Shown here: piece after piece, positions 8,985-31,290 of the stretch
Numbering within the stretch: position 1 is the stretch's first letter
Layout of the letters: each line of letters starts with the position of its first letter
From: Magnetospirillum sp.
GTDB taxonomy: Bacteria; Pseudomonadota; Alphaproteobacteria; CACIAM-22H2
NCBI GenBank assembly: GCA_027532905.1
Contig: JAPZUA010000002.1
Span: 434,001-498,000 of the forward strand
Length of the DNA stretch: 64,000 nucleotides
Direction of reading: 5' to 3'
Notes under the pieces: model-generated
The model's database searches: none
What the model saw: only the letters and a program-made list of their open reading frames with translations
Told to the model about the DNA's origin: nothing
Translations under genes and position numbers: made by a program

Positions 8985-8987
8985 GTT

Positions 8988-10814: not shown

Positions 10815-10963
10815 CCGATTTCCCCTTTCGAAGCCGCAAAACGCATCTTCGAGATATTTTCGCAAGCGATTCGCCGACAATACCGCTTTCTTGATTTATT
10901 TTTGTAACATTAGTGTCATAAACTTCCGGCAACAAGAATAAGTGTCGTCCTAAGGGGAGCCCA
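10815..10963. promoter_or_regulatory. Divergent iolD / iolG promoter region
   Basis: The 149 bases between the divergent iolD and iolG starts must carry both promoters. The AT-rich centre (10890-10925) has TTGATT at 10891 as a possible -35 for iolG, with TCATAA at 10916 as a weak, overspaced -10. No clear operator palindrome is visible and no iol regulator gene lies next to it. iolG has a good ribosome site (AAGGGGAG). Confidence 0.35.
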
Positions 10964-11956
10964 ATGATTCATATCGCGCAATTCGGTGCCGGTCGCATCG
11001 GCCGCATTCATGCCGCCAATCTTGCGGCTGGCGATTCGGCTCGGTTGCGCTACGTGGTCGATGTCGATGCGACGGCGGCCGCCGACCTCGCACAGCGCTA
11101 TGGCGCGACGGCAGTCGATGCCAGAACTGCCCTTGCCGATCCCAAGGTCGGGGCAGTGCTGATCGCGTCTTCGACCGACACGCACGCCGACTATTGCATC
11201 GCCGCTGCCAAGGCCGGCAAAGCGATCTTCTGCGAAAAGCCGATCGATCTGTCTTTGAAGCGCGTCGATGCGTGCCTGAAGGCCGTTGCAGTAGCCAAGG
11301 TGCCGATGTTCGTCGGCTTCAACCGTCGCTTCGACCCGTCCTTCGCGTCGCTGAAGGCGCGTATCGATGCGGGCGAAATCGGTCCGGTCGAGCAGGTCGT
11401 GATTTCGAGCCGCGATCCGGGGCTGCCGCCACTCGGCTATCTGAAGGTTTCGGGCGGACAGTTCCGCGACATGACGATCCACGATTTCGATATGGCGCGT
11501 TGGCTCCTGGGCGAGGAGCCGGTCGAGGTGATGGCCATGGGCTCGGCACTGGTCGATCCTGCCGTGGCCAAGGTCGGCGATACGGACAGCGTAATGGTAT
11601 TGCTGCGCACCAAGTCCGGGCGTCTGGCGCACATCAACAACAGCCGCCGTGCCAGCTACGGCTACGACCAGCGCATCGAAGTGCATGGTGCCAAGGGCCG
11701 CATGATCGCCGGCAATCTGACGCCGACCAGCGTCGAAAAAGCCGACGCGACCGCTGTCAGTTCGGACAAACCGCTTTACTTCTTTCTTGAGCGCTATGCC
11801 GAGGCCTATCGCCACGAACTCGCGGCATTCGTGTCCGCACTCTCCAAAAAGAAAAAAATGCCGGTCGATGCGAACGACGGCAGGCGCGCGCTCGTGCTCG
11901 CTGAAGCCGCTCTCGAATCCTGCCGTCGCGGCCGTGCGGTCAAGGTGCAGGGATGA
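10964..11956 (+). CDS. iolG: Inositol 2-dehydrogenase (Gfo/Idh/MocA family)
   Basis: A 330-residue NAD-dependent dehydrogenase that would oxidise myo-inositol to 2-keto-myo-inositol, the substrate of IolE. The Rossmann motif GAGRIG is at residues 8-13 and the family EKP motif (catalytic lysine) at 91-93. The C-terminal domain carries GGQFRDMTIHDFDMARW, the signature that places substrate-binding Asp and His residues in inositol dehydrogenases. It starts the rightward operon and overlaps the next gene by ATGA. A scyllo- or chiro-inositol dehydrogenase is possible. Confidence 0.88.
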   Translation: MIHIAQFGAGRIGRIHAANLAAGDSARLRYVVDVDATAAADLAQRYGATAVDARTALADPKVGAVLIASSTDTHADYCIAAAKAGKAIFCEKPIDLSLKRVDACLKAVAVAKVPMFVGFNRRFDPSFASLKARIDAGEIGPVEQVVISSRDPGLPPLGYLKVSGGQFRDMTIHDFDMARWLLGEEPVEVMAMGSALVDPAVAKVGDTDSVMVLLRTKSGRLAHINNSRRASYGYDQRIEVHGAKGRMIAGNLTPTSVEKADATAVSSDKPLYFFLERYAEAYRHELAAFVSALSKKKKMPVDANDGRRALVLAEAALESCRRGRAVKVQG

Positions 11957-12735
11957 AGAACCGGCGCGTCGACGGCCAGATTCTGCTGATCACCGGCGCC
12001 ACGCAAGGCCTCGGCGAGGCGATCGCGCGCGAGGCCGCAGCCTTGGGGGCAGCAGGTATTTGCATTACGGGGCGCAACCAAGCGCGCGGGAAGCGCGTGG
12101 CCGAATCGCTCGCGGCCGCCGGTTGCCCTGCTGAATTTGTTGCGGCCGACCTTGCCGACGAAGCGGCAACGCGCGCCGTCTTCGAAGCAGCCGTCAAGCG
12201 GTTTGGGCGCGTCGATGGGCTGGTGAATTCGGCGGCATTGACCGATCGCGGCACCATCGAAAACACGCCCGTCGAATTGTGGGACCGGCTCTTTGCCGTG
12301 AATGTGCGAGCACCCTTCGTGCTGACGCAGGCCTTCGTGCGCCATGCCAAGGCGCGTGGCGGCGGCGGGTGCATTGTCAATATCATCACGCGCTCGGCCC
12401 ATGGCGGCCAGCCGTTCCTGACCGCGTATTCGGCTTCGAAGGGGGCTCTTGCAACGCTCACCAAAAATGTCGCCAACGCCGTGCGCGGCGATCGCATCCG
12501 TGTGAACGGCCTGAATATCGGCTGGATGGAAACGCCAGGCGAACACGCGATCCAGGCGCGCGACGGCAATCCAGTGGACTGGCTCGCCAAGGCCGAGCCG
12601 GGCCAACCGTTCGGGCGCATTCTGAAACCCGACGACGTGTCGGCGCTCGTTCTTCATCTTTTGTCGCCGGCCGGCGAGATGATGACGGGCTCCGTGGTCG
12701 ATTTCGACCAAAACGTTATGGGCGCCTACGACTGA
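11953..12735 (+). CDS. Short-chain dehydrogenase/reductase
   Basis: A 260-residue classical SDR. The cofactor motif TGATQGLG lies at residues 14-21, a conserved NSAA at 92-95, the catalytic serine near 148, and the YSASK active-site tyrosine and lysine at 159 and 163. The start overlaps the iolG stop (ATGA), so the two are translationally coupled. Association with iolG suggests oxidation or reduction of an inositol or a related polyol or keto-sugar, but the sequence alone does not identify the substrate. Confidence 0.85.
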   Translation: MKNRRVDGQILLITGATQGLGEAIAREAAALGAAGICITGRNQARGKRVAESLAAAGCPAEFVAADLADEAATRAVFEAAVKRFGRVDGLVNSAALTDRGTIENTPVELWDRLFAVNVRAPFVLTQAFVRHAKARGGGGCIVNIITRSAHGGQPFLTAYSASKGALATLTKNVANAVRGDRIRVNGLNIGWMETPGEHAIQARDGNPVDWLAKAEPGQPFGRILKPDDVSALVLHLLSPAGEMMTGSVVDFDQNVMGAYD

Positions 12736-18085: not shown

Positions 18086-19024
18086 TCAAGGCGCAGGCGT
18101 CAGCTGTTCGACTTGAATTCTTGCCGCAAGCGCTCGGGTTGCGTCGCGCGTTGGCGGTGTTGCGCCTGTTTCTAGGCAGGCGGCCGCCCCGGCCGCGACC
18201 GCGTAGGCGAGGTGCGATGCCGGATCTTCGCCCGGTCTCGCCATTCGGCTCGCGAGCATGCCCGCGATACAAGCGTCGCCCGCACCGACCGTATCGACAA
18301 CCTCGATGGTCGGCGGGCTCGCGCGCCAATGGCCTGTGGGCGTGAAAAGATGCGCACCGGCCGCCCCTTGCGTATAGAGCCACCAGGCCTGCGGATTCCA
18401 TGTGCGCACGCGCGCGAGCGTGGCCATCGGTTCGGTTGTTCCGGTGAGGCCGACCAGATCCTCGTCGGACAGCTTGATTACTCGTGCAAGGCGGCACATG
18501 CGCTCGAAGGTCGGGGTGTAGCCGGCGTCCATCAAATTCCGAAAGTTTGGATCGTAGCTAATGGCGACACCGCTCGCCTTCAGCGCGCTTGCCATTGCAA
18601 CGAGCCGATCGGCGAGCGGCGGGCGGGCAAGGCTAATGCCGCCGAAATGAACCCATTGGGCGGTTTGTGCCCAACCGTCGGGCAGCAACAGCGGATCGAA
18701 ATGCAGGTCGGCGCTGTTGTCGCCGATGAAGGAATAGCGCGGCGGAGCCGTCTCGACGACGATCGCAAGCAGCGGCGAACGTCCGACGCGCTGCAGAAAA
18801 CGCGGATCGAGCCCGGCGGCTGTGTTTGCGCGCTGCAAGGCATCGCCGAACCAGCAGCGGCTGATCGCACCGGCAAAAGCACTGTTAATGCCTTGGGCGG
18901 CGGCCGCGCGCGCCACGTTCCAAGTCGAGCCGCCGACCTTGCTGACCCACGTCTCGTCGCCCGTGCGAATGAGATCGGTGAGCGCTTCGCCGACAGCGAC
19001 GAAATGCGGAAGTGCTTGCGCCAT
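18086..19024 (-). CDS. PfkB-family carbohydrate kinase (fructokinase-like)
   Basis: A 312-residue sugar kinase. The N-terminal GEALTDLI and KVGGSTWNVARAAAAQG segments form the sugar-binding di-glycine motif of PfkB kinases, and DTVGAGDACIAG near the C-terminus is the second signature with the catalytic aspartate. The overall pattern is that of bacterial fructokinases. It lies four bases after the AGE-family isomerase gene, as the last gene of the TRAP operon. If that isomerase makes fructose from mannose, this kinase would deliver fructose-6-phosphate. It is not like IolC in its N-terminal sequence. Confidence 0.85.
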   Translation of the reverse strand: MAQALPHFVAVGEALTDLIRTGDETWVSKVGGSTWNVARAAAAQGINSAFAGAISRCWFGDALQRANTAAGLDPRFLQRVGRSPLLAIVVETAPPRYSFIGDNSADLHFDPLLLPDGWAQTAQWVHFGGISLARPPLADRLVAMASALKASGVAISYDPNFRNLMDAGYTPTFERMCRLARVIKLSDEDLVGLTGTTEPMATLARVRTWNPQAWWLYTQGAAGAHLFTPTGHWRASPPTIEVVDTVGAGDACIAGMLASRMARPGEDPASHLAYAVAAGAAACLETGATPPTRDATRALAARIQVEQLTPAP

Positions 19025-19028
19025 CGCC

Positions 19029-20234
19029 CTAGGCCCGCAGTGTCTTCAGGATTTCGTAGCAGGCACCTGTCGTATGGTAGTCGACCTTGCCGGCCGGGCT
19101 TTTTTCGTCGGTCGTGTTGACGTTGGCGCGCGTCAGAAGCCGGAACCACGCCCCGTGCTCGTGGTCGATCCAATGGCGCCAGCAATAGGCCCACAGCCGG
19201 TCGTACCAATCCCAGTAAAACTGTTTACCGGTACGGTGCGCAAGAACAGCGGCCGTCGCCATGCTTTCGCACTGGACCCAATGGTATTTGCGGTCGTCGC
19301 AGATCGAAAAGTCCGGGGCGAAGCCGTAAAAGAGACCGCCATGCGTGTCGTCCCAGGCGTGCCGGAAGGCGCTTTCGAACAGTGCTTCAGCTTTGGGCAG
19401 CAGCCAGGGCAGGGCACGCTGCTGCTCGATCAAGATCAGCAGCTTCGCCCACTCGGTGAAATGGCCTGGCTGGTAGCCCCAGGGCCGGAAGATGTTGGTC
19501 ATGTCGTTTCTGTTGTAGTCCCAATCGACCGACCAGTCGCTTTTGTAGTGCTCCCAGATCATCAACCCGTCGGTCAGTGCCGCCTGCCGCTGGACGATGT
19601 TCGAGGCCACGCATTCCGCGCGGTCGAGATACTTGATGTCGCCTGTCGCCTCGAAAGCGGCAAGGCAGGCCTCGGTCGCATGCATGTTGGCGTTTTGGCC
19701 GCGATAGGGCAGGAGCTGCCAGTCTGCGGTTGCTTCGTCGGCATAGAGGCCTGCGGCAGGCTCCCAGAAACGCCGTTCCATGAGTTCGAACGTTTCCTCG
19801 AGCCATTCGCGCGCTTCGGCGATGCCCGCCATCGCGGCATGCGCATAGGCGAGCAACACGAAGGCAAGGCCGTAGCAATGGTTCGTCGCGTCGAGAATTT
19901 GCGCAGAGCCATTCTGCCAGCGCAGCTGCCAGGCATAGCCGCCGGTGGACGGGTTGCGATGCGCGCGGCGCAGGAATTCGACCGCATGGCGCGTATTGTC
20001 GCGATAGGTTTGGCTCTCGGGAAAATGCCGTGCTGCCATCGCCCACAAAAAAACGTAGCGTGTGCTGCTGACGAGGTGGCGCGTGCGCGCGTCGTAGATC
20101 GTGCCGTCGTCTTTGAGGAAATGGAAAAAGCCGCCGCTCGGGTCGTAGGCGCGCGGATGGTAGAAATCGAGCGTGTGGCTCACATGCGCAAGGATGGCTT
20201 TGCGGCTGCGAAAATCGGGCGGGTTCGGTTGCAC
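19029..20234 (-). CDS. AGE-family sugar isomerase/epimerase (D-mannose isomerase-like)
   Basis: A 401-residue (alpha/alpha)6-barrel protein of the N-acylglucosamine 2-epimerase superfamily. Recognisable segments include GGFFHFL, NANMHATEACLAAFEATGD, RPWGYQPGHFTEWAKLL and HGAWFRL, which supply the conserved histidines and arginine of the active site. The RPWGYQPGH-EW block is typical of the aldose-ketose isomerase branch (YihS, mannose isomerase) as much as of true GlcNAc 2-epimerases. The start is GTG at 20234, 17 bases after the TRAP permease stop and preceded by AGAGG. With a lyase upstream and a fructokinase-like gene downstream, mannose to fructose is the most economical reading. Confidence 0.83.
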   Translation of the reverse strand: MQPNPPDFRSRKAILAHVSHTLDFYHPRAYDPSGGFFHFLKDDGTIYDARTRHLVSSTRYVFLWAMAARHFPESQTYRDNTRHAVEFLRRAHRNPSTGGYAWQLRWQNGSAQILDATNHCYGLAFVLLAYAHAAMAGIAEAREWLEETFELMERRFWEPAAGLYADEATADWQLLPYRGQNANMHATEACLAAFEATGDIKYLDRAECVASNIVQRQAALTDGLMIWEHYKSDWSVDWDYNRNDMTNIFRPWGYQPGHFTEWAKLLILIEQQRALPWLLPKAEALFESAFRHAWDDTHGGLFYGFAPDFSICDDRKYHWVQCESMATAAVLAHRTGKQFYWDWYDRLWAYCWRHWIDHEHGAWFRLLTRANVNTTDEKSPAGKVDYHTTGACYEILKTLRA

Positions 20235-20251
20235 ATCGACCTCTGGAAAAA

Positions 20252-21538
20252 TTACCGCCCGAGAATGAGATTAGGCAGCCACGTTGTCAAAGGCGGCCAG
20301 AGCGTGATCGCCAGCAGCACGCCCAGCAGCGGCAGCAGCCACGGCACAATTGCCCGCGACATTGCCGCAAACGAGATGCCTGCGATCTTCGAAGTCACAA
20401 ACAGCACCACACCCACGGGCGGCGTAATCGTTCCGATCATTAGATTCAGCACGAAAACGAGCCCGAACTGTATCGGATCGATGCCGAACTGCGCCGCCGC
20501 CGGCGTGAGGATCGGGATGAGGATCAGCATGGCGGCGAGCGCTTCCATGAAGCAGCCGACGACCAAGAGAAGAAGATTGACGGCTAGCAGAAAAACCAGC
20601 GGATCGCCGACGAGTGCCACGATCTGTGGACCCACGGTCTGGGGGATCCGGGACAGCGACAGGCACCAGCCCAAAGCCGAAGCCGTCATGACCAGTGCGA
20701 GGACAACGCCGGTCGTCTCGACCGTCTCGGCGGCGATGCGGGGCAAGTCGCGAAGATCGAATTCGCGATAGACGAACAGGCCAAGGACAAGGGCATAGAC
20801 CGTGGCCACGCCCGCAGCCTCAGTTGGGGTAAAAATGCCGGCGATCATGCCGCCGAAAAGAATCACGGGTGTCATCAATGCCCAATGCGCGCGGCCATAG
20901 GCACGAAGGAGTCCGCGAAAGCCGGGAAAGGGGTGGCGCGGCAGGCCGCGCTTGCGCGCAATGTAGCTCACCATTGCCATCAACGCGCCCGCCATCAGCA
21001 ATCCCGGTATGACGCCTGCAAGGAAAAGGCCGCCGATCGAAACGTCCGCCGAAACGCCGTAGATGACCATCGGCAGCGACGGCGGGATAATCGGGCCGAT
21101 CGTCGCCGACGCGGCGGTAATGGCCGCTGCCGTTTCGGCGTCGTAGCCTTCGTCTTTCATGGCTTTGATTTCGAGCGTTCCTACGCCGCCCGCGTCCGCG
21201 ACGGCCGAGCCCGACATGCCGGCGAAGATCACGCTTGCCAGAATGTTGGCGTGGCACAATCCCCCGCGAAGCCACCCGACGCACGCTGTCGCGAAAGCAA
21301 AAATGCGATCCGTGATGCCCCCCGAATTCATGATGTTGCCCATCAAGATGAACAGGGGCGCCGCCAGCAAAGGGAAGGAGTTTGCCGCCTGCGCGATTTT
21401 CTGCGGCACGATCGAGGGCGTGATGCCGGTTGCGAACACGAAGACTAGCGCAGCAACGCCCATCGACACGTAGAGCGGCATGCCCAACATCAAGGCCGCA
21501 AACCAGCCGGCCAGGATCCAGCTCATTGTTTCGATCAT
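20252..21538 (-). CDS. TRAP transporter large permease (DctM family)
   Basis: A 428-residue inner-membrane protein with about 12 hydrophobic segments. The family is shown by PLFILMGNIMNSGG, FAGMSGSAVADAGGVG, IGPIIPPSLPMVIYG and the C-terminal LNLMIGTITPPVGV. The ATG at 21538 overlaps the stop of the small permease gene (ATGA); an upstream extension in this frame lies within that gene and is rejected. With DctQ and DctP it forms a Na+-coupled importer for an organic or sugar acid. Confidence 0.93.
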   Translation of the reverse strand: MIETMSWILAGWFAALMLGMPLYVSMGVAALVFVFATGITPSIVPQKIAQAANSFPLLAAPLFILMGNIMNSGGITDRIFAFATACVGWLRGGLCHANILASVIFAGMSGSAVADAGGVGTLEIKAMKDEGYDAETAAAITAASATIGPIIPPSLPMVIYGVSADVSIGGLFLAGVIPGLLMAGALMAMVSYIARKRGLPRHPFPGFRGLLRAYGRAHWALMTPVILFGGMIAGIFTPTEAAGVATVYALVLGLFVYREFDLRDLPRIAAETVETTGVVLALVMTASALGWCLSLSRIPQTVGPQIVALVGDPLVFLLAVNLLLLVVGCFMEALAAMLILIPILTPAAAQFGIDPIQFGLVFVLNLMIGTITPPVGVVLFVTSKIAGISFAAMSRAIVPWLLPLLGVLLAITLWPPLTTWLPNLILGR

Positions 21539-22026
21539 AGTATCTTCACGGCTTGCGGGGCGATGGGCCCCTTGAGGGCTTCCCAAATCTGCACGCAGGC
21601 CTGCATCAGCACAGCGATGGCGGCAATCGGCACGGGAATGTAGAGCAGGGCCGCCGACAGCGGCACGCTGATCCATTCGACGTCGAGGTTGCGCTCGATC
21701 AGCACGGGTCCGTAGATCAGCATGGCGCTGGCGAGCGCAATGACGCCAAGTTGGATTGCGATCTCCGCCACGCGGCGCGCAAGCGGCGGCAGAAGATCGA
21801 TGAGCACGTCGATCCGGATGTGGCTGCGCTTGCGCGCGGCGAGCATCCAGCCGACGAACCCCGTCCATACCAGAAGATATTGGGCTGCTTCGTCCGTCCA
21901 GGGGAGAGGCGCGCCGAGTTGACGCGAGACGACCCCGGCGACGACGCTGCCGAGCAGCGCCATCAGTAGAACAAAAGCAGCGGCGCGCATGCCGAAATCG
22001 GCCGCGCGCCGCATCGTGTCGATCAT
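21535..22026 (-). CDS. TRAP transporter small permease (DctQ family)
   Basis: A 163-residue membrane protein with four hydrophobic segments. The SRQLGAPLPWTDEAAQYLLVW segment between helices two and three is the DctQ hallmark. The start at 22026 is chosen because its ATG overlaps the stop of the binding-protein gene; the longer form starting at 22062 would run into that gene. The gene ends in ATGA with the large permease. Confidence 0.9.
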   Translation of the reverse strand: MIDTMRRAADFGMRAAAFVLLMALLGSVVAGVVSRQLGAPLPWTDEAAQYLLVWTGFVGWMLAARKRSHIRIDVLIDLLPPLARRVAEIAIQLGVIALASAMLIYGPVLIERNLDVEWISVPLSAALLYIPVPIAAIAVLMQACVQIWEALKGPIAPQAVKIL

Positions 22027-23015
22027 AAGGCGCGCAACGCTTCGAACGTGTCGCGGCCCCAACGTTCCGCAAACTGCGCAGGTACGCGCGCGAGCACCGG
22101 GTCGCGGAACAGCTTGAGATCGGGCTCAATCACCGTCATCCCAGCGGTGCGCAACGTTGCGACAAGTCCGGCCTCTTGCCCCAGCAGTTCCTGATCCTGC
22201 CATTTCGCACCGTTGGCGATCGCCGTCTGCAGAATGTCGCGGTCGGCATTGCGCATGCCCCGCCAGAACGCTTCGTTTACGATCACCAGCCGCGGCGTGA
22301 TGATGTGTTCGGTCAGAACCAGGAAGCGCTGCACCTCGAAAAACTTGCCGCTCTGGATCGTCGGAAGCGGATTTTCCTGGCCGTCGACGGCCCCTTGATT
22401 GAGGGCAAGGTAAAGTTCATTGAAATTGACCGGCGTTGCCTGAGCGCCCCACGCTTCGGCCATCGCGCGGAAGACGTCGACTGGCGGAACGCGCAGTTTG
22501 AAGCCGGCCATGTCGGCCGGTGTGCGCACAGCTTTGCTGCCTGTCGTCAGATGCCGTTTTCCGTAGTAAGTGACGGCCGCAAGTCGCATGCCGCGGCGTG
22601 CGACGAGATCGTCGTTCATGCGCAGGAACTGCGGTGCCGCCGCCGCTTTCGCCATATGTGCCGCGTCGCGCCACAGATAGGGCGCTTCAATGACCGACAA
22701 GGCAGGCAGCAAGGCCGCAAGCGCCCCGGCGCCGTCGGTTGTGATCTGCAAGGCCCCCGCCGAAACCGCTTCCATCATGTCGCGGCCCGAACCGAGCTGG
22801 CCGTTGGGGAAAGTCTGAATATCGATGCGCCCCGACGTCTTCTCACGCACTTCGGCGGCGATGCGATCAATCATCTGCACCTGCGGATGCGTCGGTGCAA
22901 GCATCTCGCCCCACCGGATCGCCGTTGCTTGCGCGCGTGCGATGGTCGGCGTCGCTAGCAGCCCGGCCGTCGCCGCCGTGCCAGCCAACAATCCGCGTCG
23001 TGAAATTCGAGACAT
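22023..23015 (-). CDS. TRAP transporter substrate-binding protein (DctP family), Tat-type signal
   Basis: A 330-residue periplasmic protein. The signal peptide starts MSRISRRGLLAG, with a twin-arginine motif, and ends in ARA near residue 28, so Tat export is likely. DctP features follow: MIDRIAAEVREKTSGRIDIQTFPNG-type helix, the segment around GFKLRVPP with the conserved carboxylate-binding arginine, and NELYLALNQGAVDGQENP. TRAP ligands of this group are usually organic, sugar or sialic acids. A GGGAGAAG ribosome site precedes the ATG. Ninety bases separate it from the upstream regulator gene; they contain a short GGCGC/GCGCC hairpin. Confidence 0.92.
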   Translation of the reverse strand: MSRISRRGLLAGTAATAGLLATPTIARAQATAIRWGEMLAPTHPQVQMIDRIAAEVREKTSGRIDIQTFPNGQLGSGRDMMEAVSAGALQITTDGAGALAALLPALSVIEAPYLWRDAAHMAKAAAAPQFLRMNDDLVARRGMRLAAVTYYGKRHLTTGSKAVRTPADMAGFKLRVPPVDVFRAMAEAWGAQATPVNFNELYLALNQGAVDGQENPLPTIQSGKFFEVQRFLVLTEHIITPRLVIVNEAFWRGMRNADRDILQTAIANGAKWQDQELLGQEAGLVATLRTAGMTVIEPDLKLFRDPVLARVPAQFAERWGRDTFEALRAL

Positions 23016-23106
23016 GGGCTCTTCTCCCTAGTTGCGGCGCTTTGGTGCGCCTTTTGTTGAACTGTTGGGATCCATTGCACGCGGCATGCGATCATCGAGG
23101 CTCCTC

Positions 23107-23769
23107 TTACATCTCCATGGCCCGCAGTCGCGCGTCCTGGATATGGGCGCCCAGGGCGGCTTGCGCGCCGAGAGCGTCGCGCGCTTCCATTTTCTCGACG
23201 ATGCCGAGATGTTCGCGCATTACGGTTTCCACGCGACTCGGGTCTAGACGCGTTTCGGCCTGGCGAATGAGGCGAATCTTGATCGAGTTCACGCGGTATG
23301 CACTCGAAACGATGTCGTTGCCCAAATAGTCGATGATGGTGTCGTGCATGTTCCAGTCGACGATCTGCGCACGGCGAATTACGTCGGCCGTTACACGTCT
23401 GCGCGCATCCTTGATGACCCGCTCGTGGGCTTCGCGCAGTCTCTGGAACTCGGCCAAAGGTGCGTCGCGAACGAAAACCGCAACGGCCTCGCGCTCGAGC
23501 ATCAAGCGGAACTGGAATGCGCAACGGATCAAGCTCAGATCGACATGGGCAACCTGCATGCCGCGCTGCGGCACCGTGACGATCAGGCCTTCGGCTTCGA
23601 GCCTCGGCACCAGTTCGCGGATTGCGCCAAGCGGCAGGCCGGTGATCTCGACCAATTCGCGTTGGGTCACGAACTGACCCGGGACGATCGCTCGCGCCAA
23701 CAGCCGATCGGTGAACGCAGCATAGGCGCGTTCACGCAACTTCGGCGTTTCAGCGCTCGCCTCGCTCAT
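23107..23769 (-). CDS. GntR-family transcriptional regulator (FCD domain)
   Basis: A 220-residue regulator. The winged helix (about 10-75) includes TQRELVEITGLPLGAIRELVPRLEAEGL, and the C-terminal all-helical FCD domain (about 85-215) includes the histidine-bearing segments WNMHDTIID and MREHLGIVEKM that bind a metal and an acidic ligand in FadR/VanR relatives. It overlaps the lyase gene stop (ATGA) and therefore lies inside the operon it presumably controls. The CTAACATGTTAG palindrome upstream of the operon is the obvious candidate target. Confidence 0.88.
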   Translation of the reverse strand: MSEASAETPKLRERAYAAFTDRLLARAIVPGQFVTQRELVEITGLPLGAIRELVPRLEAEGLIVTVPQRGMQVAHVDLSLIRCAFQFRLMLEREAVAVFVRDAPLAEFQRLREAHERVIKDARRRVTADVIRRAQIVDWNMHDTIIDYLGNDIVSSAYRVNSIKIRLIRQAETRLDPSRVETVMREHLGIVEKMEARDALGAQAALGAHIQDARLRAMEM

Positions 23770-24671
23770 TCGGCCGCGACCGAGGCCGTTGCCGCGTCGA
23801 AGCGCAATTCGAGCGCGCGCGCGCGCGCCGCATCGAGCTCAATCACGGGCGCGCGCATGCGCAGCCATTCGGGGTCCTTCTGCCGCCACGCGATCAGTGC
23901 TTTGACCGCAGGCATGAAGGGATCTGCGATAATCGCAGTTACGCACGCGGCGATTCGCGGATCGTCTTTTCCCTCCCACGCGGCCGGCCGCAGAATATCC
24001 GGACGCAGGTTGGCAAGCCCGCAGATCGACCCCGATCCGCCTTCGCGGACCGCGCGCGCAAGCAGGCGCTCGTCGCCGACGAGAATCTGCAGATCCTTGT
24101 GCGCATCGAGGAAGGATTTTGCCGACTCCCAGCTGCCCGTGCTGTCCTTGATGCCGATCACGGCTTCGGGAAACGCTTTGCGCAAACGCCCCAGCAATGC
24201 GGGAGAAAAGGCGACGCGTGTCATGCTCGGGATATGGTAAATCAGCACGTCGCGCAGCCGTCCGCCGAGCCGCTCGAACACGGCGGCATACCAGCGAAAC
24301 ATGCCCTCTTCCGACGGATCGGGAAAGTAGAAGGGCGGCGCCAAAAGCAGGGCGCGGCACCCATAGTCGTAGCCCGCGCGGCATTGTTCGACCGTTTCGC
24401 CGATCGTTGCAGCCGTAACGCCGGCGATTATCTGTTTGGGGAGATCAAAGCCCGCACCGGCTAGGGCGCCCAACGCGGCATGACGCTCCGCAAGATCGAT
24501 CGAAGCACCTTCGCCGGTGGTGCCGAACATCGTCACGCTGTCGCAGCCATCGTCGAGCACCCAGCGCGCTTGCGCCAAAGTGCGCGGCAGGTCGATAGCA
24601 CCGTTCGGCAGAAACGCTGTCGAGAGGGCGCAGGAGAGACCGATGCGCGGGTTGGACTTCGATACGGACAT
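23766..24671 (-). CDS. DapA/NanA-family aldolase (Schiff-base lyase for a 2-keto acid)
   Basis: A 301-residue TIM-barrel enzyme. GTTGEG is at residues 50-55, the active-site tyrosine in IYHIP at 145, and the Schiff-base lysine in GIKDSTG at 175. Family members condense or cleave pyruvate with an aldehyde: dihydrodipicolinate synthase, N-acetylneuraminate lyase, and 2-keto-3-deoxy sugar-acid aldolases or dehydratases. Context (TRAP importer, AGE isomerase, sugar kinase, FCD regulator) favours a catabolic lyase. It is the first gene of a seven-gene leftward operon, read from a promoter region holding two CTAAC-type operators. Confidence 0.88.
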   Translation of the reverse strand: MSVSKSNPRIGLSCALSTAFLPNGAIDLPRTLAQARWVLDDGCDSVTMFGTTGEGASIDLAERHAALGALAGAGFDLPKQIIAGVTAATIGETVEQCRAGYDYGCRALLLAPPFYFPDPSEEGMFRWYAAVFERLGGRLRDVLIYHIPSMTRVAFSPALLGRLRKAFPEAVIGIKDSTGSWESAKSFLDAHKDLQILVGDERLLARAVREGGSGSICGLANLRPDILRPAAWEGKDDPRIAACVTAIIADPFMPAVKALIAWRQKDPEWLRMRAPVIELDAARARALELRFDAATASVAAE

Positions 24672-24741: not shown

Positions 24742-24753
24742 CTAACATGTTAG
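24742..24753. promoter_or_regulatory. Palindromic operator CTAACATGTTAG
   Basis: A perfect 12-base palindrome, 71 bases upstream of the lyase start and between the divergent lyase and lacI-type genes. FCD-type GntR regulators bind short palindromes of this sort, and the operon encodes one, so it is the likely operator for the TRAP/lyase operon. Confidence 0.6.
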
Positions 24754-24848: not shown

Positions 24849-24876
24849 TTGACGTCCAAATCGTTTTGGATATAGC
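24849..24876 (+). promoter_or_regulatory. Promoter with embedded LacI-type operator upstream of the LacI-family gene
   Basis: TTGACG (24849-24854) and TATAGC (24871-24876) with a 16-base spacer form a good sigma-70 promoter. Inside the spacer, CCAAATCGTTTTGG (24856-24869) has perfect 5-base arms around a central CG, the form preferred by LacI/GalR regulators. The arrangement would let the LacI-family protein repress its own gene and the sugar ABC operon behind it. Confidence 0.65.
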
Positions 24877-24908: not shown

Positions 24909-25991
24909 ATGACGCTGCGCCGCTTGGCCGACGAACTCGGCCTTTCTCCCACCACTGTTTCGCGCGCATTGGCCGGCTACGACGATGTGGCGGCGGCGAC
25001 ACGTGCCAAAGTCGTGCGGGCTGCCAAGCGACTCGGCTATGTGCCCAATGCCGCCGCCGTCGGTTTCCGCACTGGGCGCAGCCGGGCGGTCGGCGTGGTT
25101 TTGCCCGCCCAGCCCGGCCATTTCGACGATCCATTCTTTCTGCAAGTATTGACGGCGATCGGTCGTCGCCTTGCCGAAGCCGATTTCGATCTGCTGGTCG
25201 CCGCCGCCCAGCCCGGCGAGGCCGAGCTCAAAGTTTATCGCAGGCTCGTCGATGCGCGACGCGTGGACGGCATGATCGTTGCGCGTGCCAGACTCGACGA
25301 CGAACGCATCGCGTTTCTGCAGGACCGCGATTTTCCGTTCATCGTGCACGGGCGGACGCGCACGAAGCGGCCCTATGCGTGGCTCGATATCGACGGTCAC
25401 GCGGCTTTTCGCGACGCAACGCTGCGCCTTGCGGCGATGGGCCATCGGCGCATTGCGCTCATCAATGCGCCGGACCACTACACCTTCGCGCACTACCGCG
25501 AAGCGGGCTGGCGTACAGCACATGCGGCACTCGCAATGCCGACGGGGGAGTTCCGTGCGGCCGAAGCCACCGAAGAGAACGGCCATCGCCTTGCGGCCGA
25601 GCTCTTGGCGCTGCGCGTGCCGCCGACCGCGCTACTGTGCGGCACCGATCGTTTGGCCGTCGGCGCGTTGCGCGCGATCGCCCAGGCAGGGCTTGGGGCA
25701 GGTCGCGATGTTTCGGTGATCGGCTACGACGATCTGCCGGTCGCAAGCTACACGCAGCCCGCCTTAACCACCGTTGCGCAACCCTGGACGCAAGCGGGCG
25801 AAAAGCTCGTCGAAATGCTGCTTGCACTTTTTGCGGGCGCCAAACCCGAAATGCTCTGTGAATTGTGGCAAGGCAAGCTCGTCGTGCGCGGGTCCGATGG
25901 ACCGGCACCAGGCCACGATACGGAAAAAGACGTCAAAACGACGCACGTAAAAAAGGGAGAGAAACCAAATGCGCAAACAACTCATCGCTAG
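24909..25991 (+). CDS. LacI-family transcriptional regulator
   Basis: A 360-residue repressor-type regulator. The N-terminal helix-turn-helix (LRRLADELGLSPTTVSRAL, about residues 3-21) and hinge helix are followed by a periplasmic-binding-like sensor domain with the VIGYDDLPVASYTQPALTTV signature near the C-terminal end. GAGGGGGAG precedes the ATG. The protein runs about 30 residues beyond the usual end of the family in a lysine-rich tail, and the gene overlaps the next one by 23 bases in another frame, so the downstream ribosome site lies inside it. It should control the sugar ABC/GH63 operon that follows. Confidence 0.9.
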   Translation: MTLRRLADELGLSPTTVSRALAGYDDVAAATRAKVVRAAKRLGYVPNAAAVGFRTGRSRAVGVVLPAQPGHFDDPFFLQVLTAIGRRLAEADFDLLVAAAQPGEAELKVYRRLVDARRVDGMIVARARLDDERIAFLQDRDFPFIVHGRTRTKRPYAWLDIDGHAAFRDATLRLAAMGHRRIALINAPDHYTFAHYREAGWRTAHAALAMPTGEFRAAEATEENGHRLAAELLALRVPPTALLCGTDRLAVGALRAIAQAGLGAGRDVSVIGYDDLPVASYTQPALTTVAQPWTQAGEKLVEMLLALFAGAKPEMLCELWQGKLVVRGSDGPAPGHDTEKDVKTTHVKKGEKPNAQTTHR

Positions 25992-27249
25992 TGCGGCGAT
26001 TCTGCTGGGGCTCGGCTTCCTGCCGCAAGCCCAGGCTCAGGAAACCGTCTTTATGTCGACGCAGCTGCGGCCAATCGAGGAAGCGCAGAAAGTGCGCGAC
26101 GTGATCCTCAAGGGTTTTGCCGGGCAGGCGGTCTATGTGACCGAGCAGCCGCAGCAGCTTAATGTGCGCATGCGCGCCGAAGCGGCCGCCGGTCGTCGTA
26201 CGGTCAGCGTGATTGGCGCCCTTCACGGCGAATTGCAGCCGTTGCAGCCGATGGGTGCTCTCGACGACATCTCGGACGTCGCCGCAAAGCTCGCCGATCG
26301 AGGTATTCCCGCCAATCTGATGTCGCTCGGCAAGCTTGGCGGCAGCACGCAGGCCTATATTCCGTGGATGCAGGCGACTTACATCATGGTCGCCAACCGC
26401 CAAGCGTTGCCGTTCCTGCCGGCAGGTGCCGACATCAACGCGCTCAGCTACGACCAGCTCAAGGAATGGGCGAAGAACGTGCGCGAGCGCACCGGCCAAC
26501 GCCGCCTCGGCTTCCCGGCTGGGCCGACGGGGCTGATGCCGCGCTTCTTCCAGGGCTATCTCTATCCGTCCTACACCGGCAGCGCCGTCTCTGCTTTCCG
26601 CTCGGCCGAAGCCGAAGCGATGTGGACGAATTTCAAGGACCTCTGGCAGTACGTGCAGCCCAACTCGACCAGCTACAATTTCATGCAAGAGCCGTTGCTG
26701 GCCGACGAAGTATGGATTGCGTTCGACCATGTGGCGCGCGTGCTTGATGCATTGCGCCAGCGGCCCAACGATTTCGTCACGTTCCCGGCACCCGCCGGCC
26801 CGAAAGGCCGCGGCTACATGCCCGTCGTTGCGGGCCTGTCGATCGCCAAGGACGCGCCGAACCGGGCAGGGGCTGTGGCGCTGATCGACCATCTGAGCAC
26901 GGCGCGCACGCAGCTTGTGACCGCGGCCGAAGTCGGCTTTTTCCCGGTCGTCAAAGCCGATCTGCCGGCCGATCTTGCCCCCGGCGTGCGACTTGCCGCC
27001 AACGCGATCGCGCTCACGCAGAATGCGCGCGACGCCCTCGTGAGCCTCCTGCCGATCGGGCTCGGCGACAAGGGTGGGGAGTTCAACAAGGTCTATATCG
27101 ACACGTTCACGCGTATCGTGCTGCGCAACGAGCCGGCGCGCGCCGTGCTCGACCGCGAGGCCGAGAATCTGCGCGCGATCATGAATGCGACGGCTGCACC
27201 GTGCTGGGCCCCGGATCCGGTCAGCACGGGCGCTTGCCCGGTCAACTGA
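25969..27249 (+). CDS. Sugar ABC transporter substrate-binding protein
   Basis: A 426-residue extracellular solute-binding protein of the family 1 (sugar) type, with a Sec signal peptide ending AQA near residue 24. The hinge and ligand-cleft pattern is seen in the SLGKLGGSTQAYIPWMQATYIMVANRQ region, FPAGPTGLMPRFFQGYLYP, and a C-terminal helix rich in alanine. The ATG at 25969 has AAGGGAGAG upstream and lies inside the end of the lacI-type gene. The C-terminus has two cysteines (PCW and GACP) that may form a disulfide. Permeases and ATPase follow, so this starts a complete importer. Confidence 0.87.
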   Translation: MRKQLIASAAILLGLGFLPQAQAQETVFMSTQLRPIEEAQKVRDVILKGFAGQAVYVTEQPQQLNVRMRAEAAAGRRTVSVIGALHGELQPLQPMGALDDISDVAAKLADRGIPANLMSLGKLGGSTQAYIPWMQATYIMVANRQALPFLPAGADINALSYDQLKEWAKNVRERTGQRRLGFPAGPTGLMPRFFQGYLYPSYTGSAVSAFRSAEAEAMWTNFKDLWQYVQPNSTSYNFMQEPLLADEVWIAFDHVARVLDALRQRPNDFVTFPAPAGPKGRGYMPVVAGLSIAKDAPNRAGAVALIDHLSTARTQLVTAAEVGFFPVVKADLPADLAPGVRLAANAIALTQNARDALVSLLPIGLGDKGGEFNKVYIDTFTRIVLRNEPARAVLDREAENLRAIMNATAAPCWAPDPVSTGACPVN

Positions 27250-27312
27250 GCGAAAGAGGTGCAGGCGGAGCCGCTTCCCGGTTCTGCCTGTACCCCGACC
27301 GCCTGAACGCAA

Positions 27313-28164
27313 ATGCAAGCGCGCCCCGCTTATCTGCCCTACCTGCTGTTGGCACCGTCGGTGTTGTTCCTGGCGGCGTTCTTTCTCTATCCGCTTGCCG
27401 AAACGATCCTGCTGTCGCTGCGCACGGCCGAAGGATTCTCGCTCGACAATTATCGCCGCATGGCGGGCGACCTCAATTTCGCCTCGGCCCTGGGCAATAC
27501 GTTCCTGCTCGTGGGCGTGGTAGTGCCGCTGCAGATAGCGCTGGCGCTCGGCCTTGCCCAGATGCTCACGAAGATTTCGCGCGGACGCGAAATGGTGCTG
27601 TGGGTCTGGACGATCCCGATGGGCGTGTCGGATCTTGCCGCAGGGCTCGTCTGGCTCGCCCTGTTGACCGACCGCGGCTACGTGAACAGCGCCCTCTTCG
27701 CCCTCGGCCTAATCGACGGGCCAACCGGCTGGCTCTCCTACGAAACGCCGATTACGCTGTTCGTCGCGATCGTGCTGGCCGAGGTGTGGCGCGCGACCGC
27801 GATTGTTCTCGTGATCCTCGTTGCAGGCTTCGGCCTCATTCCGAAAGAATACGGCGAGGCTGCCGAGATATTCGGCGCCACGCCTTGGCAGCGCTTCACG
27901 CGCGTGACCTTACCTCTGCTCAAGCCGAGCCTGCAGACGGCGCTTATTCTACGCACCGTGCTAGCGTTCGAGGTCTTCGCGGTCGTTTTTGCGTTGGGCG
28001 GTCGGAATTTTCCGGTGCTCGTCAGCGAAGCCTATGTCTGGCAGTTCGAAAACCAAAGCTACGCCGTCGCCGCTGCCTATGCGGTCGTCGTAATGGCGAT
28101 CTCGCTTGCGGCGACGGCGCTCTACCTGCGCGTGCTGCGGACCAAGCCGGAGGCGCGGCTGTGA
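27313..28164 (+). CDS. Sugar ABC transporter permease (MalF/UgpA type)
   Basis: A 283-residue inner-membrane protein with six hydrophobic segments. The ATPase-docking EAA motif is EYGEAAEIFGATPWQRFTRV, followed by TLPLLKPSL. The gene starts 63 bases after the binding-protein stop and its last base is shared with the ATG of the second permease. An open frame that crosses this gene in another register is a shadow. Confidence 0.9.
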   Translation: MQARPAYLPYLLLAPSVLFLAAFFLYPLAETILLSLRTAEGFSLDNYRRMAGDLNFASALGNTFLLVGVVVPLQIALALGLAQMLTKISRGREMVLWVWTIPMGVSDLAAGLVWLALLTDRGYVNSALFALGLIDGPTGWLSYETPITLFVAIVLAEVWRATAIVLVILVAGFGLIPKEYGEAAEIFGATPWQRFTRVTLPLLKPSLQTALILRTVLAFEVFAVVFALGGRNFPVLVSEAYVWQFENQSYAVAAAYAVVVMAISLAATALYLRVLRTKPEARL

Positions 28165-28967
28165 TGCGCCCGCGCAGTCTCCTGTTTTGGGCTGGTGTCG
28201 CGACGATGTGCGCCTGGGTGCTCGTGCCGATCTGGCTCATCGCAGCCGGTGCGATTGGTGGACGCCAAGGCGTGTTTCTGTGGCCCAAATCTATGCTGCC
28301 CCCTGAGTTTACCTTTTCGGCGCTCGCGCTGTTCTTGCGCATCGAAGGGGTAGGCAAGGCGCTGTGGAACAGCATGACGGCCGCCGCGATGACGATGGTG
28401 TTTGCGACATTGCTGGGCACGCCCGCCGGCTATGCGCTCGCACGCTTCTCGTTCCGCGGCCAGAACGCTTATCGGTTGCTGATTCTGCTTACACGCGCTT
28501 TTCCGATCGCGATCCTCGCATTGCCTTTGACGGTCGCGTTCATCCGCTGGGGACTCTACGACACGACGCTCGGCGTGGCGCTCGTCCATACGGCGCTCGC
28601 TCTGCCGTTCGCGGCCCTCGTCACGTCGAGCCTGTTCGTCGGCATTCCGCGCGAACTCGAAGAGGCGGCTTGGATTTTCGGCTGCACAAGGCTGCAGGCC
28701 TTCGTCAAAGTCGTTCTGCCGCTGGCCTTGCCCGGCATTGCGGCAACCGGCCTGTTCGCCTTCGTGATCTCGTGGAACGAGGTGTTTGCCGCCTCCGTGC
28801 TCACGGTACGCGAGCGCACACTGACCGCGTATCTGCTGACCGTGCTCTCGGAATCGCCGCTGCATTTCCGTTTCGCCGGCGGGCTCGTGCTTATCCTCCC
28901 GTCGGTCGTCTTCATCTTTGCCGTGCGTCGCTATCTGTTTGCGATGTGGGGCATTGCCAACCGCTGA
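28164..28967 (+). CDS. Sugar ABC transporter permease (MalG/UgpE type)
   Basis: A 267-residue membrane protein with six hydrophobic segments and the EAA loop ELEEAAWIFGCTRLQAFVKV. The ATG at 28164 overlaps the preceding stop by one base (TGATG). The frame is open far upstream, but that part is a shadow of the first permease gene. It forms the heterodimeric membrane channel together with that permease. Confidence 0.9.
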   Translation: MRPRSLLFWAGVATMCAWVLVPIWLIAAGAIGGRQGVFLWPKSMLPPEFTFSALALFLRIEGVGKALWNSMTAAAMTMVFATLLGTPAGYALARFSFRGQNAYRLLILLTRAFPIAILALPLTVAFIRWGLYDTTLGVALVHTALALPFAALVTSSLFVGIPRELEEAAWIFGCTRLQAFVKVVLPLALPGIAATGLFAFVISWNEVFAASVLTVRERTLTAYLLTVLSESPLHFRFAGGLVLILPSVVFIFAVRRYLFAMWGIANR

Positions 28968-28975
28968 GGAAGCCA

Positions 28976-30028
28976 ATGGCCGGAATCTCGATCGAGAGCG
29001 TGCGCAAGAGTTTCGGGAGCATGACGGCGCTCAAGGAGCTTTCGCTCAATATCGAGGACGGCGAGTTCGTCGCGTTGCTGGGCCCGTCGGGCTGCGGCAA
29101 GACGACGCTGCTGCGCATCGTGGCCGGGCTCGAGACGCGCAGCGCTGGCCGTATCCTCGTCGGCGGACGCGACGTGAGCGACCTGCCGCCGCGGGAGCGC
29201 AAGCTTGCGATGGTGTTCCAGAACTATGCTGTGTTCCCGCACATGACGGTGTACGAAAACATCGCTTTCGGCTTGCGCATGGCCAAGGCCGATCGCACCA
29301 AGGTCGACCGACAGGTCCAGCGCGCGGCGGGCCTCATGCATATCGAGCATCTGCTGGCCCGCCATCCGGGGCAGCTTTCTGGCGGCCAGCGCCAGCGCGT
29401 GGCTGTCGCGCGTGCGCTTGCGGTCGAGCCGAGCGTGCTGCTGATGGACGAACCTTTGTCCAATCTCGATGCGTTGCTGCGCATGGAGATGCGCGCCGAG
29501 CTCAAAGCCGTGCTGCGCGAGGCGGGCACGACGACGCTGTACGTCACGCACGATCAGACCGAAGCGATGGGGCTTGCCGACCGCATTGCGGTTATGCGTG
29601 ACGGCCGGATCGAGCAGCTCGCTCCGCCGATGGCGGTCTATCGCACGCCTGCGACGGTTTTCGTCGGTTCGTTCGTCGGTGCACCGCCGATGAATTTTCT
29701 GCGCTGCCAGGCCATCGACGGCACAGTCGCGATCGGTGCGTTGAAGCTCGCCTGTCCGCGCACCAGCGGCGAGATTGTCATGGGCGTGCGCGCCGAGGAT
29801 TTGTTGCCGGCGACGGCCGACACGGGGCTGCCTTTCGAGGTGCGCGTGGTCGAACCGCTGGGCGCCCATGCGCTGCTGACCGGGAATGCGCACGGCCAGC
29901 AGGTCCGCGTCGTTTATGCGGGCGAACGCGATGTTGCGGCCGGCGAAACGCTTCATCTTGCCCCCATCGCGGGGCGCATTTGCTGGATGGATGCGGCCGA
30001 CGGCCGCGCAATAGAAGGACGTACATGA
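28976..30028 (+). CDS. Sugar ABC transporter ATP-binding protein (MalK/UgpC type)
   Basis: A 350-residue ATPase. Walker A GPSGCGKT is at 36-43, Q-loop Gln82, signature LSGGQ at 134-138, Walker B Asp-Glu at 158-159 and switch His192. The C-terminal 110 residues form the MalK regulatory (TOBE) domain. The start is eight bases after the permease stop with GAGGAAG upstream, and the gene overlaps the hydrolase gene by ATGA. It energises the importer encoded just upstream. Confidence 0.92.
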   Translation: MAGISIESVRKSFGSMTALKELSLNIEDGEFVALLGPSGCGKTTLLRIVAGLETRSAGRILVGGRDVSDLPPRERKLAMVFQNYAVFPHMTVYENIAFGLRMAKADRTKVDRQVQRAAGLMHIEHLLARHPGQLSGGQRQRVAVARALAVEPSVLLMDEPLSNLDALLRMEMRAELKAVLREAGTTTLYVTHDQTEAMGLADRIAVMRDGRIEQLAPPMAVYRTPATVFVGSFVGAPPMNFLRCQAIDGTVAIGALKLACPRTSGEIVMGVRAEDLLPATADTGLPFEVRVVEPLGAHALLTGNAHGQQVRVVYAGERDVAAGETLHLAPIAGRICWMDAADGRAIEGRT

Positions 30029-31290
30029 ACGCGTATATCGAAAAGGCGCAGGGTATTCTGCGCGCAAACGACAAGGGCGGCTACACCGTGCCGACGGCTC
30101 GGCTCTATCCGTTCCAGTGGAATTGGGACTCGGCCTTCGTTGCAATGGGCTGGCAGACATTCGACGAGGCTGCCGCATGGCGCGAAGTCGAGAGCCTGCT
30201 CAAGGGCCAATGGGACGACGGCATGGTGCCGCATATCGTGTTCCACACCGCGAGCGACCAGTATTTTCCGGGGCCCGACGTGTGGGGCACGCACCATGCG
30301 CCGTCCACATCCGGCATCACACAGCCGCCGGTGCTCGCCTCTGCCGTTGCACGGCTCGTCGCCAACGCGCGCGACAAAGGCCTTGCCGAGGCGAAAGGAG
30401 CGGCGATCTATCGGCAGCTTTTGGCCAACCATCGCTGGTGGTCGCGGGCGCGCGATCCGCTGCAGACGGGCCTCGTGGCTGTGCTGCATCCGTGGGAAAC
30501 AGGGATGGACAACAGCCCAGCTTGGGATACAGCGTTTGCGCGCGTACCTACAAACACCACGACGGTCGTCAAGCGACGCGACACGAGCCACGTCGATGCC
30601 GGACATCGCCCGCACAACATCGACTACCAGCGGTTCATCCATCTGGTCGATTGCTATCGCGATGCGGGCTGGGATCCGGCGCGGATGTGGCAGGTCGCGC
30701 CTTTCAAAGTTGCCGATGTTTCGATCAACGCCATTCTGGTGCGCGCGGAAGTTGATCTGCTGGGGCTCGCCGCGCGCTTCGGCACGGCCGCCGAGCAGGC
30801 CGAGATCGCGAAGCGAGCTACGCGCATGAAGCAGGCACTCGCGACGCTATGGCAGCCAAAGCTCGGCCTATTCGGCTCGCGCGATCTGATCGCCGATGCG
30901 CCGATCGAGGTTGCGACCTCGGCAGGCTTCTTGCCGCTATATGCCGATGCAGCGAATGCCGCACAGGCTGCACAGATGGGGGCTACGCTCGACCGTTGGC
31001 GTTCTCAAGTGGACGTCCTCGTTCCCTCGACGCCACCCGAATCCCCGGCTTTCGAAGCGCTACGCTATTGGCGCGGACCGGTCTGGGCCGTTGTCAATTG
31101 GATGATCGCCGACGGTTTTGCGCGCGCGGGCGACGCGGTGCACGCACAGCAGATTTCGGCGTCGACGCGGAGCGCCATTGAACGGGCGGGCTTCGGCGAG
31201 AATTTCAATCCGCTCAGCGGTGCGGCCGGCGGCGGCGGCACCTTTTCGTGGACGGCAGCGATCTATCTGCTGCTCGCGGAGAAGGGCTGA
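30025..31290 (+). CDS. GH63/MGH1-type glycoside hydrolase (glucosyl- or mannosyl-glycerate hydrolase-like)
   Basis: A 421-residue (alpha/alpha)6-barrel hydrolase without a signal peptide, so cytoplasmic. Family landmarks are FQWNWDSAF near the N-terminus, WETGMDNSPAWD with the probable acid residue, DYQRFI, a YWRGPVWAVVNW block and GENFNPLSG with the probable catalytic glutamate. These fit the MGH1-type domain of clan GH63 enzymes that hydrolyse mannosylglycerate or glucosylglycerate. It is the last gene of the LacI-ABC operon (ATGA overlap with the ATPase), so it probably cleaves the imported solute. A trehalase-like role on another small glycoside is the main alternative. Confidence 0.82.
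   Translation: MNAYIEKAQGILRANDKGGYTVPTARLYPFQWNWDSAFVAMGWQTFDEAAAWREVESLLKGQWDDGMVPHIVFHTASDQYFPGPDVWGTHHAPSTSGITQPPVLASAVARLVANARDKGLAEAKGAAIYRQLLANHRWWSRARDPLQTGLVAVLHPWETGMDNSPAWDTAFARVPTNTTTVVKRRDTSHVDAGHRPHNIDYQRFIHLVDCYRDAGWDPARMWQVAPFKVADVSINAILVRAEVDLLGLAARFGTAAEQAEIAKRATRMKQALATLWQPKLGLFGSRDLIADAPIEVATSAGFLPLYADAANAAQAAQMGATLDRWRSQVDVLVPSTPPESPAFEALRYWRGPVWAVVNWMIADGFARAGDAVHAQQISASTRSAIERAGFGENFNPLSGAAGGGGTFSWTAAIYLLLAEKG

Follow-up and report, generated by a model that had tools for sequence, protein, structure and literature searches.

A Seven-Gene Operon of Magnetospirillum sp. That Probably Joins an L-Fucose-Type Sugar-Acid Cassette to a Mannose Module

Introduction

Which sugar or sugar acid does a lyase serve when it shares one operon with a transporter, an isomerase and a sugar kinase? 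This question is raised by a 64,000-nucleotide stretch of Magnetospirillum sp. (contig JAPZUA010000002.1, positions 434,001–498,000; the whole stretch is hereafter called the window). Here, a minus-strand run of seven open reading frames (ORFs) fills positions 18086–24671, in the order lyase, FCD regulator, DctP, DctQ, DctM, AGE isomerase and PfkB kinase. The initial annotation read this order as a pathway for KDN, a deaminated nonulosonic acid. The TRAP transporter (DctP, DctQ and DctM) would import KDN, the lyase would split it into pyruvate and D-mannose, and AGE and PfkB would carry the mannose to fructose-6-phosphate. Extended to the relatives described below, this pathway would have them oxidize the released aldose with an aldo-keto reductase (AKR) and a lactonase instead. 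The comparisons below lead to another answer. Two sugar modules have probably been fused in the operon, one for sugar acids of the L-fucose type and one leading from mannose to fructose-6-phosphate.

Structure of the Operon

The seven genes and the putative operator in front of them are as follows.

23766–24671, minus strand, class I lyase of the DHDPS/NanA superfamily, predicted 2-keto-3-deoxy-aldonate aldolase of the L-2-keto-3-deoxyfuconate (L-KDF) type (PF00701, 95 bits)
23107–23769, minus strand, GntR/FCD regulator, overlapping the lyase gene by 4 nt (PF07729/PF00392)
22023–23015, minus strand, TRAP substrate-binding protein DctP (PF03480, 230 bits)
21535–22026, minus strand, TRAP small permease DctQ (PF04290)
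20252–21538, minus strand, TRAP large permease DctM (PF06808, 409 bits)
19029–20234, minus strand, AGE-family isomerase, predicted D-mannose isomerase (PF07221, 372 bits)
18086–19024, minus strand, PfkB-family kinase, predicted fructokinase (PF00294, 130 bits)
24742–24753, FCD operator CTAACATGTTAG, a perfect palindrome that precedes the lyase start by 70 nt and stands just before a minus-strand TTGACA box resembling a −35 element

Each of the seven proteins scores well over the Pfam cut-off for its named family. Along the transcript the genes are spaced by −4, 91, −4, −4, 17 and 4 nt, as expected of a single operon. The full set recurs in unchanged order, with 81–97% protein identity, in a second species of the genus, a metagenome-assembled genome labelled Telmatospirillum (L032/L056). 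The conservation indicates that the cluster is real and not a chance arrangement, and with the ORFs and Pfam matches it bears out the gene order first annotated. Gene order and spacing also speak for the KDN pathway. The second species shares, in addition, a divergent LacI/ABC/GH63 operon, found in the window at 24909–31290. This operon was absent from the initial annotation and bears on the interpretation.

The Lyase and Its Relatives

The lyase carries the catalytic Tyr145 and Lys175 and the GTTGEG motif. Its nearest relative in PDB is 3b4u (262 bits), an entry titled merely dihydrodipicolinate synthase. Identity with DapA was rejected, based on a score of 101 bits against a cut-off of 206 and on Met150, which sits where DapA has its substrate arginine. 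Two models of NanA, the N-acetylneuraminate lyase, give 44.2 bits (cut-off 382) and 45.4 bits (cut-off 281). These scores speak against cleavage of KDN, while the Asp-Glu pair of the lyase (GDE, residues 199–201) speaks for it, as it lies near the position of GYDE in sialate lyases.

The genomic context of the lyase family is more informative. A scan of 84,980 genomes yielded 80 loci with close relatives of the lyase, and neighboring genes were clustered over 89 loci. Genes in these loci were predicted by a simple codon-usage script, so that starts are rough estimates and some small genes may have escaped detection. In most loci the FCD gene adjoins the lyase gene, and in about 50 of them DctP-DctQ-DctM then follow, with up to 97% identity. 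Many loci end at contig edges, and the neighbor counts are thus lower bounds: at least 73 for FCD, 53 for DctM, 51 each for DctP and DctQ, 46 for a COG3618-type, fuconolactonase-like lactonase, 44–45 for sugar ABC components, 43 for a FucU-type mutarotase, 34 for AKR and 11 for a UxaA/GarD-type dehydratase. Lyase, FCD regulator and TRAP transporter form a conserved and widespread alphaproteobacterial sugar-acid cassette with its own operator.

What follows the cassette differs among lineages. Seven loci of the Beijerinckiaceae/Methylobacterium type (L060, L062, L066, L069, L072, L075 and L090) have lyase-FCD-DctP-DctQ-DctM-AKR-lactonase-FucU on one strand. AKR, lactonase and FucU thereby hold the operon slot that AGE and PfkB hold in the window. 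In the Reyranella/Enhydrobacter clade, the dehydratase gene comes directly after the lyase gene. Among the lyase loci retrieved, AGE and PfkB stand beside the lyase solely in the genus of the window and at no locus outside it, which is a point against the KDN pathway. In a maximum-likelihood tree the window lyase is nested within a clade with oxidative L-fucose-type neighbors (supports 98/91 and 100/98). Based on this placement, AGE-PfkB could most simply be considered as a late addition to the cassette.

The dehydratase also accompanies the lyase at the level of genomes. Of 43 genomes with the lyase, 42 have it at E ≤ 1e-60 and 37 at 69% identity or more; in a class-wide sample of 286 genomes the figures are about 68 (about 24%) and 7. 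These counts ignore kinship. Substrates of the UxaA/GarD superfamily are altronate, galactarate, idonate and D-arabinonate, to which gene context adds L-fuconate and L-galactonate (PMC6336799). Mannonate is not among these substrates, which counts further against the KDN pathway.

Some of the retrieved loci deviate in other ways. The lyase-FCD-ABC locus of Mycobacterium sp. KBS0706 (L109) groups with Inquilinus limosus (97/86 support), and this record seems to be an alphaproteobacterial genome that was mislabelled or contaminated. In another locus type (L059:16651-18629 and L063:16725-18703), genes for a MurQ-type etherase and an AnmK anhydro-MurNAc kinase come directly after DctM on the same strand, in L063 by sequence likeness only. 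In L058:1069-4338, a lyase of this group lies right behind an ABC ATPase gene and an alpha-glucosidase/alpha-xylosidase-like gene, with neither FCD nor TRAP.

Oxidative Genes in the Genome of the Window

The genome of the window contains one lyase of this group, that of the window itself. The oxidative genes are found elsewhere in it. AKR, lactonase and FucU lie together at C1:199,480–201,778, with 73, 66 and 79% identity to the best members of the lyase-linked clusters, and a dehydratase gene at C1:107,784 is 79% identical to the gene beside the Tagaea cassette. The lactonase scores 202 bits against the fuconolactonase model (cut-off 400) and FucU 67 bits against the fucose mutarotase model (cut-off 141). 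Both miss the cut-offs, and by sequence both belong to the same superfamilies as the named families.

A close parallel is the non-phosphorylating L-fucose route 1 (FucM-FucA-FucB-FucC-FucH), in which mutarotase, dehydrogenase, lactonase, dehydratase and aldolase act in sequence (PMC11199699). The L-fucose operon of Campylobacter jejuni (cj0481-cj0490, with FucR) starts with a dapA-like gene and further has uxaA genes, an amidohydrolase gene and a repressor whose binding site precedes dapA (PMC12566272). The alphaproteobacterial set resembles it in the DHDPS-family lyase gene at the first position, the operator upstream, the lactonase-type amidohydrolase and the UxaA-type dehydratase. It differs in using an FCD regulator, TRAP transport (often plus sugar ABC transport) and an AKR instead of a short-chain dehydrogenase (SDR). 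The genome of the window differs further in having the feeder genes and the dehydratase at other loci and AGE-PfkB appended. The linkage of mutarotase, 1-dehydrogenase and lactonase expected of such a route is seen among the 89 lyase loci; the genome of the window has all three at its other locus. Such a route also calls for an aldonate dehydratase of the UxaA/GarD or the enolase type, and the genome has one of the former at C1:107,784.

The lyase can be read as a 2-keto-3-deoxy-acid aldolase because the alphaproteobacterial set holds the same kinds of parts as the C. jejuni L-fucose genes, because the neighbors of the cassette elsewhere are oxidative, and because the genome of the window combines an oxidative set and a dehydratase at other loci with a single lyase. 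Most likely it is an aldolase for 2-keto-3-deoxy-aldonates, of the L-2-keto-3-deoxyfuconate type, which would yield pyruvate and lactaldehyde, not mannose. The proposal that it makes mannose from KDN was not supported, since its NanA score is far under the cut-off and the usual companions of its family are L-fucose-type oxidative genes and the dehydratase. The alternative named in the initial annotation, that the lyase cleaves a different sugar acid, was the better one and fits the neighbors of the family.

Operator, Regulator and Binding Protein

The cassette operator CTRACATGTYAG is present in one copy in the 4.26-Mb genome of the window. In the related loci, YTRACATGTYAR is found within 200 nt upstream of the lyase gene exactly in 46 of 80 loci and with one mismatch in 9 more. 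It is seen 2 times elsewhere in 1.31 Mb and never in shuffled sequences. From this linkage of motif and lyase, we infer that the FCD protein binds CTAACATGTTAG. When two mismatches were allowed, the operator search in the window genome found scattered sites only, fewer than in the control, and none adjoining the AKR/lactonase/FucU or dehydratase loci. A shared FCD regulon therefore could not be shown for the oxidative loci.

The operon shares three superfamilies with the sialic acid operons (SiaPQM-NanR-NanA): the DHDPS-type lyase, the FCD-type regulator and the DctP-type TRAP transporter. It is unlike them in its other neighbors and in the scores of its regulator and lyase, which lie far under the NanR and NanA models. 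The regulator gives 23.2 bits against the NanR model, missing the cut-off of 260, and its best model is another FCD family, likewise under cut-off. DctP keeps the carboxylate-binding arginine of KLRVP and the motif QENPL; NGTR of SiaP reads GKRH, RVPN reads RVPP, and the residues around TYAEFGR differ. Some of these positions bind the ligand in SiaP, and a KDN binder could differ from SiaP. HiSiaP binds KDN more than 300-fold more weakly than Neu5Ac (PMC4646407). Similarity to SiaP alone would thus not predict KDN uptake. A Sinorhizobium meliloti locus annotated with SiaP and N-acetylneuraminate lyase was considered as a sialic yardstick and given little weight, as that annotation is itself unproven. 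The search for a sialidase of the BNR type (BNR_2) gave no match in the window genome, which also counts against KDN.

The binding protein also brings in a second candidate substrate. Among the relatives of DctP is the TRAP binding protein 4pf6 (149 bits), which was reportedly solved with 3-deoxy-D-manno-octulosonate (KDO). If KDO were imported by TRAP, the lyase would split it into pyruvate and D-arabinose, which would then be oxidized by AKR, lactonase and dehydratase. All of these, and FucU, suit the D-arabino configuration. This pathway requires a second aldolase, however, and the Reyranella/Enhydrobacter loci, where the lyase adjoins the dehydratase alone, suggest that the lyase cleaves the product of the dehydratase. 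Besides, D-arabinose is not a known substrate of AGE mannose isomerases. KDO degradation is accordingly regarded as quite improbable. Our literature search found no description of an operon joining KDN with TRAP or a mannose isomerase, or KDO with TRAP.

Isomerase, Kinase and Probable Source of Mannose

AGE comes closest to two D-mannose isomerases, 3gt5 of Xylella with 507 bits and 5x32 of Marinomonas with 475 bits over residues 6–399. The active-site histidine triad known from aldose-ketose isomerases of the YihS type is present as His185, His258 and His387 (cf. PMC7762179), and the best NCBIfam model of AGE is the D-mannose isomerase NF051846 (211 bits, under the cut-off of 600). In full-length similarity and in the three histidines AGE resembles the AGE-superfamily D-mannose isomerases (Marinomonas 5x32, Pseudomonas geniculata AGEase); its operon context is different, and its activity is a prediction. 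For PfkB, the best NCBIfam model (under cut-off) and the best PDB match, 5ey7, are both fructokinases. It is a reasonable reading that AGE and PfkB convert mannose via fructose to fructose-6-phosphate. This part of the initial annotation is supported by the closest relatives and the histidines, and the fit of AGE to D-mannose also suits the KDN pathway. The mannose may have a nearer source, however, in the divergent operon.

24909–25991, plus strand, LacI-family regulator (PF00356/PF13377)
25969–27249, plus strand, sugar ABC binding protein, predicted from its position, without NCBIfam match; the set is co-conserved in L032
27313–28164 and 28161–28967, plus strand, sugar ABC permeases (Pfam)
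28976–30028, plus strand, MalK-like ABC ATPase (Pfam)
30025–31290, plus strand, GH63 hydrolase, probably the source of the mannose, with mannosylglycerate (or glucosylglycerate) as predicted substrate
24855–24870, between the divergent operons, LacI-type palindrome TCCAAAACGATTTGGA, the sole site in the window at up to 3 mismatches and identical upstream in L056

GH63 scores 397 bits to Thermus thermophilus TTHA0978 (2z07/4wva) over residues 7–416, versus 209–217 bits to the mycobacterial glucosylglycerate hydrolase; its best NCBIfam model is NF047898 (362 bits, under the cut-off of 550). It resembles TTHA0978 and the Mycobacterium hassiacum GgH in its full-length match, which is stronger to the mannosylglycerate enzyme, and differs from them in being paired with an ABC importer, LacI and a mannose isomerase. 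Its substrate is predicted, and glucosylglycerate is possible.

Among 385 genomes of the class, AGE is seen in 8, GH63 in 13 and both in 4. In all 4 the two genes are at most 10 kb apart, and two of the four belong to the genus of the window. In the others (G109 and G272), the 15 kb examined contain no match for lyase, FCD or TRAP. In G109, AGE and a LacI-ABC-GH63 operon are transcribed divergently, and AGE is followed by mannosyl-3-phosphoglycerate-phosphatase-like and glucosyl-3-phosphoglycerate-synthase-like genes. Such a synthase was not found in the genus of the window, in a search without positive control. In G263 and G037, AGE genes with 64–65% identity adjoin LacI-type regulators and an ABC transporter, again without lyase. 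Because of the GH63 matches and the linkage of AGE and GH63 without lyase outside the genus, mannosylglycerate can be considered as the nearer source. It is more likely that the mannose comes from mannosylglycerate via the GH63 operon than from the lyase, a further point against KDN.

Both operons could instead form a single regulon, dedicated to mannosylglycerate and similar glycosyl-acids. Variants of these compounds would enter through ABC and TRAP, GH63 would free mannose, and the lyase would handle a by-product. The divergent layout is kept in two species of the genus, and the LacI palindrome lies within the shared intergenic region. Other genera, however, have the lyase-TRAP cassette and AGE/GH63 apart, and we know of no role of a lyase in mannosylglycerate breakdown. 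A single regulon is as doubtful as KDO degradation.

Other Sugar Genes

A more distant second sugar-acid cluster lies at G000:C1:299-309 kb (L148), with a UxaA-like gene (37%), AKR, an ABC importer, an enolase-type protein, LacI and a 30% lactonase relative. In the window, positions 258–1364 contain an enolase-superfamily sugar-acid dehydratase-like gene, whose best model is talarate/galactarate dehydratase, under cut-off. Positions 8097–12735 contain genes for a TPP enzyme and a xylose-isomerase-like TIM-barrel protein near a Gfo/Idh-like gene at 10964–11956, which is suggestive of an inositol-type catabolic locus.

Discussion

From gene content, conservation, operator, co-localization and co-occurrence, we infer substrates, regulatory action and direction of flux for the two modules as follows. 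The first module (lyase, FCD repressor and TRAP) would serve the non-phosphorylating oxidation of L-fucose, or of a sugar with a similar configuration such as D-arabinose or L-galactose. TRAP would bring in the sugar acid, the UxaA/GarD-type dehydratase encoded at C1:107784 would form the 2-keto-3-deoxy acid, and the window lyase would split this into pyruvate and a short aldehyde, in the case of L-fucose L-lactaldehyde. Free sugar could enter the route through the AKR dehydrogenase, lactonase and mutarotase encoded at C1:199.5–201.8 kb, and the FCD protein would repress from CTAACATGTTAG. In the second module, the AGE mannose isomerase and the PfkB fructokinase would turn D-mannose into fructose-6-phosphate, the mannose most likely being released from mannosylglycerate that is imported and hydrolyzed by the divergent LacI/ABC/GH63 operon.

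Several facts weigh against this fusion of modules. What looks like one transcription unit under one FCD operator is easier to explain if all seven genes serve one pathway. AGE-PfkB, in the exact slot of the sugar-oxidizing genes, could be their substitute and act on an aldose that the lyase releases; that both sets could process such an aldose is the best remaining argument for the KDN pathway. Neither the dehydratase nor the oxidative set adjoins the lyase in the genome of the window. Lactonase, FucU, dehydratase and AKR all stay under the curated cut-offs of their named families and therefore do not pin down the exact sugar. The dehydratase counts come from a lyase-bearing set rich in Bosea, yet the genomes with the cassette span several families.

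If the KDN pathway were true, the locus would be a complete KDN catabolic operon with a new lyase subfamily. We regard this as unlikely, if marginally less so than KDO degradation or a single regulon, and the fusion of two modules remains the probable explanation. It corrects a prediction of KDN use that would otherwise pass into annotation. The lyase-FCD-TRAP cassette offers a clear operator and a substrate class open to testing, and some AGE mannose isomerases may well function in the use of mannosylglycerate.

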